Under the pieces are notes generated by a model. It worked only from the letters and a program-made list of their open reading frames with translations. It was not told the origin of the DNA and searched no databases. Source: an uncultured Ruminiclostridium sp. (GTDB taxonomy: Bacteria; Bacillota; Clostridia; Oscillospirales; Ruminococcaceae). Taken from it: a stretch of DNA of 64,000 nucleotides. The stretch covers positions 1 through 64,000 of the forward strand of contig CALXIO010000010.1 in the NCBI GenBank assembly GCA_944388385.1. Direction: 5' to 3'. Below are positions 18,518-31,668 of the stretch, piece after piece (the first letter of the stretch is position 1; each line of letters starts with the position of its first letter). Both the position numbers and the translations under genes were made by a program.

Positions 18518-20473
18518 TCAGTCCTTGATAACTGTCTTTTCAGCGATTTCCTTTAATACCATCATAGTAAAGTCATCTTCTGTCATAGCACCAAGGTCGC
18601 CTCTCTTACGGCAACGAACTGAAACCTCTCCGGATTCAACCTCCTTGTCGCCGATGATAAGCATATAGGGTATCTTCTGAAGCTGTGCTTCTCTTATCTT
18701 AAAGCCGATCTTTTCGTTACGGTTATCAACAGATACACGAACGTTCATAGCATCCAGCTTTGAAGCAAGATTTTCTGCATATTCCTTAGCTCTGTCTGTT
18801 ACAGGAAGAAGTCTTACCTGCTCGGGTGCGATCCATAAAGGAAGTGCGCCGGCATACTTTTCAAGCAGATATGCAAGAGTACGCTCATAGCAACCAAGGC
18901 TTGTACGGTGGATAATGTAGGGAGTCTTCTTTGTGCCGTCAACATCCACATATTCCATACCGAACTTTTCAGCAAGAAGCATATCTATCTGAATTGTTAC
19001 AAGGGTATCCTCCTTGCCGTATACATTACGGTACTGAATATCCAGCTTAGGACCGTAGAATGCGGCTTCGTCGATACCGATTGTATAATCAACGTCTAAG
19101 TCCTTGAGAATTTTTTCCATAGCAGCCTGTGCGTGATCCCACTGCTGGGCTGTACCCTCATACTTATTGTTGGGGTTAGCAGGATCCCACTGGGAAAATC
19201 TGAAGGTACAATCCTCTAAAAGTCCCACAGTTTCAAGGCAATACTTAGCAAGATCAAGACAGCCCTTGAATTCCTCCTCAAGCTGTTCGGGACGGATAAT
19301 AAGATGTCCCTCGGAAATTGTAAACTGTCTTACTCTGATAAGGCCGTGCATTTCACCGCTGTCCTCATTACGGAAAAGTGTTGAGGTTTCGCCAAGACGC
19401 ATGGGAAGGTCACGGTAGGAACGCTGTCTGTTTAAGAATACCTGATACTGGAAGGGGCAGGTCATGGGACGAAGTGCAAAGCATTCCTTTGTTTCGTCAT
19501 AAGGGTCACCCAGTACAAACATACCGTCAAGGTAGTGATCCCAGTGGCCGGAGATTTTATAAAGATCTCTCTTAGCAACATAGGGAGTCTTTGTAAGGAG
19601 GTATCCCCTCTTCTGCTCTGTATCCTCTACCCATCTTTGGAGTACCTGAACTGTTCTTGCACCCTTGGGAAGAAGAATAGGAAGACCCTGACCGATATAA
19701 TCAACTGTTGTGAAGTATTCAAGCTCTCTGCCTATCTTGTTATGATCTCTCAGCTTAGCCTCCTCAAGCATCTTAAGGTGAGCCTCAAGCTCAGAAGCCT
19801 TGGGGAATGCTGTACCATATACTCTGCAAAGCTGCTTGCCCTTTGAGTCGCCTCTCCAGTAAGCACCTGTACAGCTTGTAAGCTTGAATGCCTTAACTGC
19901 GCCTGTGCTCATAAGGTGAGGACCTGCGCAAAGGTCTGTAAAGTCGCCCTGTGAGTAGAAGGAAATAGGCTCGTTCTTGCCTGCGTGTTCCTCGCATAAT
20001 TCTACCTTGTAAGGCTCATCAATGCTCTTTAAGTATTCAATAGCCTTATCGGGAGCAAGCTCATACTGCTTAATCTCGATATTTTCCTTAACTATCTTCT
20101 TCATCTCCGCTTCAATAGCGGTTATATCATCAGCTGTAAAAGGCTTTTCAACATCAAAGTCATAGTAAAAGCCGTTTTCAATAGCAGGACCTATTGCAAG
20201 CTTTGCTGCGGGGTAAAGTCTTTTTACCGCCTGGGCTAAGATGTGGGATGCTGTGTGACGGAAAGCCTTTCTGCCGTCATCGTCTGCGAATGTGAGAATT
20301 TCAAGAGTGCAATCTGTATAAATTACAGTACGAAGATCCTTAACCTCTCCGTTTACCTTTGCGGCGCAAGCTACTCTTGCAAGTCCCTGACTGATCTGTG
20401 ATGCAATGTCTATTACTGAAGCTGCTGCTTCGATTTCCTTGACACTGCCGTCCTTTAGTGTGATTTTTATCAT
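18518..20473 (-). CDS. thrS: Threonyl-tRNA synthetase
   Basis: 651 residues. Domains in order: TGS (1-60), editing domain with HTASHILAQ (H73, H77), class II catalytic core (FALRPMTCPFQYQVF, RVRQFTISEGH, TSLGCYERTLAYLLE) and a C-terminal anticodon-binding domain. It charges tRNA-Thr and hydrolyses Ser-tRNA-Thr. Single-gene unit with a near-perfect promoter and its own terminator. There is no T-box upstream; instead the leader holds a hairpin resembling the tRNA-Thr anticodon arm next to the ribosome binding site. Confidence 0.98.
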   Translation of the reverse strand: MIKITLKDGSVKEIEAAASVIDIASQISQGLARVACAAKVNGEVKDLRTVIYTDCTLEILTFADDDGRKAFRHTASHILAQAVKRLYPAAKLAIGPAIENGFYYDFDVEKPFTADDITAIEAEMKKIVKENIEIKQYELAPDKAIEYLKSIDEPYKVELCEEHAGKNEPISFYSQGDFTDLCAGPHLMSTGAVKAFKLTSCTGAYWRGDSKGKQLCRVYGTAFPKASELEAHLKMLEEAKLRDHNKIGRELEYFTTVDYIGQGLPILLPKGARTVQVLQRWVEDTEQKRGYLLTKTPYVAKRDLYKISGHWDHYLDGMFVLGDPYDETKECFALRPMTCPFQYQVFLNRQRSYRDLPMRLGETSTLFRNEDSGEMHGLIRVRQFTISEGHLIIRPEQLEEEFKGCLDLAKYCLETVGLLEDCTFRFSQWDPANPNNKYEGTAQQWDHAQAAMEKILKDLDVDYTIGIDEAAFYGPKLDIQYRNVYGKEDTLVTIQIDMLLAEKFGMEYVDVDGTKKTPYIIHRTSLGCYERTLAYLLEKYAGALPLWIAPEQVRLLPVTDRAKEYAENLASKLDAMNVRVSVDNRNEKIGFKIREAQLQKIPYMLIIGDKEVESGEVSVRCRKRGDLGAMTEDDFTMMVLKEIAEKTVIKD

Positions 20474-20489
20474 TTTTTATTCCTCCATT

Positions 20490-20515
20490 AAAGCCGCCAT
20501 ACAAGAGCGGACTTT
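20490..20515 (-). promoter_or_regulatory. thrS leader hairpin mimicking the tRNA-Thr(UGU) anticodon arm
   Basis: A 5-bp stem CCGCU/GGCGG closes a 7-nt loop CUUGUAU (20499-20505): C32-U33, UGU at anticodon positions 34-36 (20501-20503), A37. The stem continues as AAAG/CUUU with one bulged U. The ribosome binding site GGAGG (20482-20486) begins 3 nt after the hairpin, so bound ThrRS would block initiation. In E. coli the thrS operator works this way. A second 6-bp hairpin (20521-20536) caps the transcript's 5' end. Confidence 0.6.
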
Positions 20516-20542
20516 TAATTTGTGCATTTATGCACACCTGTA

Positions 20543-20571
20543 ATTATACCACTTACAGCTGTAAATGTCAA
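20543..20571 (-). promoter_or_regulatory. thrS promoter
   Basis: Consensus TTGACA (20566-20571), 17-bp spacer, consensus TATAAT (20543-20548). Transcription should start near 20536, giving a leader of about 63 nt. The -10 and spacer lie in the ligA-thrS gap and the -35 sits next to the ligA stop codon. Confidence 0.93.
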
Positions 20572-29656: not shown

Positions 29657-31339
29657 TTACTTAACTAAGGATGAATTGTTGATAGCTGAAATAAGAGCGC
29701 TTACAGATGAACGGATAATGTCTGTGTGAAGTCCTGCGCCCCAGTAGGAAACACCGGTTTCATCGGTAATCTCAACATAGGCTATTGCCTTTGACTTAGT
29801 ACCTACTTCAAGAGCGTGCTCGTTGTAGTTCTGGAGTGTGTAGTGAAGACCCAGACCGTTCTTTATAGCCGCACTTACAGCATCAAGTCTGCCGTTACCT
29901 CTGCCGCTTATTTCATAATCCTTGCCCTTGTAGATAACAGTAACATTTGCAACTATCTGCTCCCCGTTGTTTTCCTGTACATAGTGAGCTTCCTTAACAA
30001 CAAGCTCTGTTTCCTTGTTTACAAACTGCTCACGGAATACGTTGTAAACCTCATCGGGAGATAATTCCTTGTGCATATGGTCGGAAACTGACTTTACGGC
30101 ATAGCCAACCTTTTCTCTGAATTTAGCAGGCAGGTCAACACCGAATTTCTGCTGTAACAGATAACCGATACCGCCCTTACCACTCTGGCTGTTGATACGG
30201 ATAACGTCACCGTCATACTGTCTTCCCAGATCCATGGGGTCAATAGGCAGATAAGGTACTGTCCAATGCTCGGGATTTTTTTCCTCTCTCCACTTCATAC
30301 CCTTTGCAATAGCATCCTGGTGTGAGCCGGAGAATGCGGCAAATACCAGTGCACCGCTGTAGGGCTGTCTTTCGTAAACCTTCATGCAGGTCATTCTCTC
30401 GTATACCTTGGTGATAGACTGAATATCAGAGAAGTCAAGCTTGGGGTCTACTCCGTGGGTGTACATATTAAGAGCAAGTGTAACAATATCAACATTACCT
30501 GTTCTTTCGCCGTTACCGAATAAAGTACCCTCAATTCTGTCTGCACCTGCAAGCAGTCCCAGCTCGCAGTCTGCAACTGCACAGCCTCTGTCGTTGTGGG
30601 GGTGAAGTGATACAATAACATTTTCTCTGTACTTCAGATTTTCGCACATATATTCAACCTGGCTTGCGTATACGTGGGGAGATGACATTTCAACTGTAAC
30701 AGGCAGATTTATTATAACCTTGTTATCAGCTGTGGGCTGCCAAATATCCAGTACCGCATTACAGATTTCAAGACTGAACTCAGGCTCAGTACCTGTAAAG
30801 CTTTCGGGAGAATACTCAAATCTGAAATCACCGGGTGTTGACTGCTTGTATTCGTTAAGGAGCTTTGCGCCGGTAACCGCAATTTCGATTATCTCTTCCT
30901 TTGACTTTCTGAATACCTGTTCTCTCTGTGCTACTGATGTAGAATTATAGAGGTGAACTATGGCGTGCTTAGCACCTGTAAGTGCTTCAAAGGTTTTCTT
31001 TATAATGTGCTCTCTTGACTGGGTCAATACCTGGATTGTTACATCATCGGGAATGAGATTTTGTTCAATAAGTGCACGGCAGAATTCATATTCTGTTTCA
31101 CTTGCAGCAGGAAATCCTATTTCAATCTCCTTAAAGCCTATATCAACCAGCACCTTGAAGAATTCCAGCTTTTCCTCTAAACTCATAGGTACTATAAGTG
31201 CCTGGTTACCGTCTCTCAGGTCAACGCTGCACCAATCGGGAGCCTTATCTACATACTCCTTTTCTGCCCATTTCAGGCACTTTACGGGAGGCATAAAATA
31301 GCCTCTTGTGTACTTGCTTGTGTCCATTTTTCCTTTCAT
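29657..31339 (-). CDS. leuA: 2-isopropylmalate synthase
   Basis: 560 residues from the ATG at 31339, chosen for AAAGGAAG at 7 nt; the frame is open upstream into the T-box terminator region. The long form has the catalytic TIM barrel starting WCSVDLRDGNQAL, metal ligands in SLHPHNDRG, and a C-terminal LeuA allosteric domain (about 440-560) for leucine feedback. It condenses acetyl-CoA with 2-ketoisovalerate, the first committed step to leucine. It is a monocistronic unit controlled by a T-box. Confidence 0.96.
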   Translation of the reverse strand: MKGKMDTSKYTRGYFMPPVKCLKWAEKEYVDKAPDWCSVDLRDGNQALIVPMSLEEKLEFFKVLVDIGFKEIEIGFPAASETEYEFCRALIEQNLIPDDVTIQVLTQSREHIIKKTFEALTGAKHAIVHLYNSTSVAQREQVFRKSKEEIIEIAVTGAKLLNEYKQSTPGDFRFEYSPESFTGTEPEFSLEICNAVLDIWQPTADNKVIINLPVTVEMSSPHVYASQVEYMCENLKYRENVIVSLHPHNDRGCAVADCELGLLAGADRIEGTLFGNGERTGNVDIVTLALNMYTHGVDPKLDFSDIQSITKVYERMTCMKVYERQPYSGALVFAAFSGSHQDAIAKGMKWREEKNPEHWTVPYLPIDPMDLGRQYDGDVIRINSQSGKGGIGYLLQQKFGVDLPAKFREKVGYAVKSVSDHMHKELSPDEVYNVFREQFVNKETELVVKEAHYVQENNGEQIVANVTVIYKGKDYEISGRGNGRLDAVSAAIKNGLGLHYTLQNYNEHALEVGTKSKAIAYVEITDETGVSYWGAGLHTDIIRSSVSALISAINNSSLVK

Positions 31340-31402
31340 GTGAATACTTCCTTTCTCACTGTACAATTCTTGATGTAGGCAAGAGCGTGGAGCGTTCAAA
31401 TA

Positions 31403-31668
31403 ATAAATAAACCCCGTCTCAATAAAGAGACGGGGTAATAACCTCGTGGTACCACTCTTCTTGACAGATAAATCTGTCCGCTTTAAGCCACATCTATCAA
31501 TGTGTTACTCTGTAACGGGAGCGCCCGTCATAACCTACTGCCAAAGGGTTCGGCCATGCTGCTCTTGGGTGAGTTATAACTGCCTTCAGATATTGCCTTG
31601 CACCAACCGGCAACTCTCTGTGAAAATCCAACAGGTTTTTTCCCAATCATCGCTTTTTCACTATTTAC
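31403..31668 (-). promoter_or_regulatory. T-box leader of leuA, probable leucine specifier CUC
   Basis: The T-box core AAGAGTGGTACCACGAGG is at 31442-31459 (minus strand), immediately before a strong terminator. Stem I occupies the 5' part; a CUC triplet at 31571-31573 in the context AUAACUCACC sits where a specifier loop is expected and matches leucine. Uncharged tRNA-Leu should favour the antiterminator. The 380-bp gap between leuA and hisS is thus fully explained by this element, its promoter and the hisS terminator. Confidence 0.88.
31412..31435 (-). terminator. T-box terminator hairpin
   Basis: CCCCGTCTC/GAGACGGGG, a 9-bp stem with a 6-nt loop, followed by TTTATTTATTA on the minus strand. 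Its 5' arm lies directly next to the T-box core, as needed for mutually exclusive folding. Confidence 0.92.

Follow-up and report, generated by a model that had tools for sequence, protein, structure and literature searches.

In Escherichia coli, threonyl-tRNA synthetase (ThrRS) represses its own mRNA through an operator in the thrS leader, the mechanism and anticodon specificity of which have been established experimentally (PMC9976931, PMC7373986, PMC3858243). This operator is a textbook case of molecular mimicry and the bacterial example cited in the open literature that was searched. A related principle operates in yeast, where HisRS binds an anticodon-like loop of its own mRNA and represses it, and tRNA relieves this repression (PMC6542539). 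Control of thrS in Firmicutes is usually exerted by a T-box (at least 29 of 34; PMC2494555). No description of a mimicry operator of the E. coli kind in Clostridia was found in the open-access literature searched or in Rfam 15.

The DNA analysed here (the window) is a stretch of 64,000 nucleotides from an uncultured Ruminiclostridium sp. A preliminary description had proposed that its thrS leader imitates the anticodon arm of tRNA-Thr and so permits autoregulation by ThrRS. Comparison with related loci was used to assess this proposal.

Architecture of the thrS leader

Read along the minus strand, the interval between ligA and thrS contains, in order, a promoter, a 5' hairpin, the anticodon-like arm, GGAGG and the ATG. 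The individual features are as follows.

20543..20571, minus strand: consensus sigma-A promoter of thrS, TTGACA-N17-TATAAT, matching at 12 of 12 positions, with TG before the -10 (extended -10)
20521..20536, minus strand: 5' hairpin UGUGCA-UAAA-UGCACA, where the transcript is predicted to begin, loop without NGU
20490..20515, minus strand: arm plus lower-stem extension AAAG (20515-20512)/CUUU (20493-20490), U20511 unpaired
20494..20510, minus strand: putative Thr anticodon-arm mimic CCGCU-CUUGUAU-GGCGG, with conserved loop and covarying stem
20505-20499, minus strand: loop of the mimic, C32 U33 U34 G35 U36 A37 U38, with the anticodon-like UGU at 20503-20501, U33 at 20504 and A37 at 20500
20482..20486, minus strand: Shine-Dalgarno sequence GGAGG of thrS, 7 nt past the arm and 3 nt past the extended stem
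20473-20471, minus strand: thrS start codon ATG, read from the sequence
18518..20473, minus strand: thrS, encoding a 651-residue ThrRS with TGS, SAD, class II core and HGTP anticodon-binding domains

Both hairpins of the preliminary description, one just before the Shine-Dalgarno sequence (20510-20494) and the other at the 5' end of the leader (20536-20521), were recovered. Transcription is predicted to start near 20536, which would give a leader of ∼62 nt. The folding energy of the 68-nt leader was -16 kcal/mol (z = -2.53). The arm is a hairpin with a 7-nt U33-NGU loop, with the nuance that for the window sequence RNAfold slightly favours a fold in which U31 is bulged and C32 pairs with G39; relatives with the loop CUCGUAA fold with a plain 7-nt loop.

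The 5' hairpin is probably a stabiliser of the mRNA end. It is retained with altered sequence in several relatives of group A, defined below (e.g. GUGUACAAGUGUAC in L025), and inspection by eye revealed no counterpart in the shorter leaders of L026-L030. That it forms a second anticodon arm was rejected on account of its loop, which lacks NGU.

Neither Rfam nor the leader sequence itself gave any indication of a T-box at the window thrS, and no terminator, stem I or Thr specifier codon is present in the leader; a T-box at this position, which the preliminary description had already considered absent, was thus rejected. The only T-box that Rfam places in the window lies at 31423-31659, upstream of an open reading frame (29657-31399) that reads as 2-isopropylmalate synthase, and the genome therefore uses T-boxes, though not for thrS. 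In 20 related loci no Rfam 15 family was found at the gathering threshold, a threshold that also missed the visible T-box sequence of L159. By motif, a T-box was present at 67 of 103 thrS loci in the order sample and at 25 of 66 in the family sample.

Control of thrS by a reduced or derived T-box, or by another tRNA-sensing riboswitch, would agree with the usual regulation of this gene in Firmicutes (PMC2494555) and with the frequency of T-boxes in the sampled order. It nevertheless has next to no probability, given that the ∼62-nt leader lacks T-box sequence, stem I and terminator and that its loop bears the anticodon, where a specifier would carry a Thr codon.

Conservation of the anticodon-like arm

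Regions upstream of 324 thrS loci were sampled, 157 of which lack a T-box motif. A hairpin whose loop contains U33-(U/C)34-G35-U36 precedes thrS in 27 sampled species belonging to at least four lineages. Applied to the E. coli leader as a positive control, the same search rule recovered the known operator as GUGAUCU-UUCGUGU-GGGUCAC, 24 nt before the ATG.

The exact 17-mer of group A, CCGCTCTYGTAWGGCGG, occurs only immediately before thrS among the matches listed in 71 congeneric genomes. Together with the thrS loci that were read, these matches define group A, 15 species including the window genome, the leaders of which are ∼44-63 nt long and share the promoter layout of the window in 15 of 15 cases. 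By LigA comparison the window genome groups with exactly the 14 other group A genomes (71-76% identity), group B (G004, G021 and G075) being next (67 and 64%). Arms of group B have stems NCCG/UCUG with U.U at 31.39. Group D, which consists of six genomes of genus g32 together with L098 and L032, carries arms such as GACAGGC-G-UUUGUAU-A-GCUUGUC, GAUAGGC.../...GCUUAUC and GGCAGGC.../...GCUUGCC, and a further arm with another stem is present in L063. The arm stands beside the ribosome binding site in groups A and D and in L063, its end lying 15-22 nt (group A) or 17-21 nt (group D and L063) before the ATG; in group B this distance is 44-48 nt.

Among 15 distinct arms, the sole invariant columns are U33, G35 and U36. 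Position 34 is only ever U or C, so that the triplet is always a Thr anticodon, UGU or CGU, and A37 is present in 13 of the 15. The loop conservation looked for among relatives was found, with U33, G35 and U36 invariant, position 34 restricted to two letters and A37 usual. An earlier, redundant set had GU at 35-36 in 26 of 30 U33 hairpins.

The loop is held by its sequence and the stem by compensatory change. Standard pairs occupied 77.8% of stem cells compared with 51.7% after shuffling, and 36 cells were changed on both sides compared with 13.7. The covariation score was 0.694, as against 0.216 for shuffled alignments (none of 500 shuffles scored as high), and it fell to 0.363 when the partner was slid by one column. 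The stem covariation anticipated among relatives was thereby borne out. All group A arms share one and the same five-pair stem, so the signal arises mainly between groups, within groups B and D and from flanking pairs. The 31-39 pair is unconserved, with mismatches at 31.39 in groups B and D and in L063, indicating a looser arm.

In the 157 leaders free of the T-box motif, 10 distinct U33-xGU arms were counted, compared with 0.37 ± 0.61 (maximum of 3 in 300) when leaders were resampled with base-to-base transitions preserved. Control pieces of the same length from further upstream yielded 4 such arms in 608. These data bear on the notion that the hairpin has a purely structural role at the ribosome binding site, as an mRNA stabiliser or standby-site spacer in which UGU is incidental. 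Several congeners do have only a small hairpin without an NGU loop at the same place, and the window leader carries its 5' hairpin too. However, the letters of the loop persist while the stems are rewritten, and U33-NGU arms are ∼27 times as frequent as in resampled leaders, with no enrichment further upstream, which makes this explanation distinctly unlikely.

Recognition by another regulator, such as a small RNA, an RNA-binding protein or a ribonuclease, is less probable still. Conserved hairpins preceding genes can bind many factors, and contact with ThrRS is here a proposal based on the leader, but the exact motif is confined to thrS among the matches listed, and another regulator would not explain why variation at position 34 always leaves a Thr anticodon. 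Mimicry of tRNA-Thr directed at ThrRS is accordingly the preferred reading of the arm.

Several other leaders were noted among the relatives. In the congeners L004-L006, L144-L150, L158, L161 and L163, the thrS leader contains neither a T-box nor an anticodon arm and mostly has a small pre-Shine-Dalgarno hairpin only, implying that control through the arm is dispensable. Thirteen congeners with an N-terminally truncated ThrRS cluster on the ThrRS tree. Twelve of their leaders (L168, L170, L172-L177, L179, L180, L182 and L183), when aligned, share the pattern GAU-G-CCYGC-CGGUW-GCGGG-...-AUCAAAU, in which the CCGGUWG-loop element is enclosed by an outer helix reaching as far as the Shine-Dalgarno sequence. 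The loop can be drawn either with a GGU anticodon and C33 or as a 5-nt loop. The truncated ThrRS proteins accompanying these leaders lack the TGS domain, and in two that were checked the anticodon-reading residues at 575, 577, 583 and 609 are changed. A similar loop, in GUGUGC-CGGUU-GCGCAC, precedes the Shine-Dalgarno sequence in L290 and L396, which belong to another family. The CCGGUWG leader may represent a second class of mimic. A broader scenario, in which the family repeatedly exchanged the thrS T-box for one-arm mimics independent of that of E. coli and in which a CCGGUWG class co-evolved with truncated ThrRS, is put forward tentatively, with the odds somewhat against it. No leader resembling an anticodon stem-loop was seen upstream of hisS in the window.

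ThrRS and the proposed mechanism of autorepression

One ThrRS gene was found in the window genome. Inspection of its product reveals the N-terminal domains and, at the positions aligned with N575, K577, R583, E600 and R609 of E. coli ThrRS, the same residues; we take these five to be the anticodon contacts of the E. coli enzyme. Structural relatives of the window ThrRS include both 1KOG (the operator complex) and 1QF6 (the tRNA complex).

A tree of whole ThrRS sequences parts the window from the other group A genomes. This split is explained by a mosaic ThrRS: in windowed comparisons with the rest of group A, identity is mostly 55-90% over residues 1-250 and 570-650 and 17-59% over residues 270-560. 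Replacement of the whole of thrS beneath a resident operator, as the tree had suggested, was rejected, given that only the catalytic core differs. ThrRS genes of the genus are mosaic, and two types of catalytic core (approximately residues 250-560) that are only 20-50% identical were observed when the window thrS was compared with L025, L144, L158 and L159. Comparison of L158 with L144 shows a swap with sharp borders (88-98%, 18-60% and 82-98% identity in succession), and the second core resembles that of L159 ThrRS (62-78%), a gene with a T-box motif upstream. As judged by these alignments, the leader, N-terminus and anticodon-binding domain of group A are inherited together and the catalytic core is exchanged, a co-inheritance consistent with an operator that is read by the anticodon-binding domain.

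Three tRNA-Thr genes (GGU, CGU and UGU) are present in the genome, all with loops of the form UU-NGU-AA. With these the leader loop, CU-UGU-AU, shares U33, the anticodon and A37. The stem of the arm is unlike all three genomic Thr anticodon stems, and the idea that the arm arose from a duplicated tRNA-Thr gene was rejected on that ground.

The conserved loop, the covarying stem, the lack of a T-box and the retained residues of the anticodon-binding domain together favour the proposal of ThrRS mimicry made in the preliminary description. The leader is thus read, with a probability of roughly 85%, as a translational operator through which ThrRS would repress its own synthesis. We infer ThrRS binding, repression and tRNA competition from the anatomy of the leader and from the E. 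coli case. Free ThrRS would bind the hairpin loop via its C-terminal anticodon-binding domain, as it would the anticodon arm of tRNA-Thr, and the enzyme, placed a few nucleotides from the Shine-Dalgarno sequence, would block loading of the 30S subunit. Uncharged tRNA-Thr would compete for ThrRS and so lift repression. In groups A and D and in L063, an arm ending 15-22 nt before the ATG would fall inside the usual ribosome footprint. At 44-48 nt, the arm of group B appears too far away for simple occlusion of the ribosome, and a longer reach or another step would be needed. With a single arm, one ThrRS subunit might suffice, or a dimer might be shared by two mRNAs.

Comparison with known operators

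The T-box systems of Firmicutes, exemplified by thrS and thrZ of Bacillus subtilis, act on the same gene and respond to the same signal, the status of tRNA-Thr. The window leader differs from them in having no T-box, terminator or specifier codon and appears to imitate the anticodon rather than to read it. In the HisRS system of yeast (PMC6542539) an aminoacyl-tRNA synthetase likewise recognises an anticodon mimic carried by its own message, but the system is eukaryotic, involves another synthetase and has its hairpin inside the mRNA, not in a bacterial leader at the ribosome binding site.

The closest counterpart is the E. coli thrS operator (1KOG). In both cases a mimic of the Thr anticodon arm lies in the 5' UTR of thrS, upstream of the Shine-Dalgarno sequence and close to it, with a U31-G39 closing pair, and the cognate ThrRS has TGS, editing and anticodon domains with the same aligned anticodon-domain residues. 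The differences concern layout and host. E. coli presents two arms, linked by a single strand, to the ThrRS dimer, one for each subunit, whereas the window leader has one; the leaders of group A are short, with the arm nearer to a strong Shine-Dalgarno sequence; and no sequence similarity was seen between the two operators, the present host being a member of the Clostridia, where T-boxes normally control thrS.

In the order and family samples, the arms are confined to a few clades nested among lineages that have T-boxes or unmarked leaders. This nested distribution, the single arm, the short leader and the absence of visible similarity to E. coli favour an independent origin, which is the simpler reading of samples drawn from this order and family. 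Of the two origins left open by the preliminary description, convergent or ancestral, the convergent one is favoured.

A second, much smaller and apparently independent version in Clostridia would show that tRNA mimicry can readily evolve in place of a T-box. The leader would serve binding and structural studies as a minimal operator provided by nature, and would open to direct test why two arms are needed in enterobacteria where one is found here.
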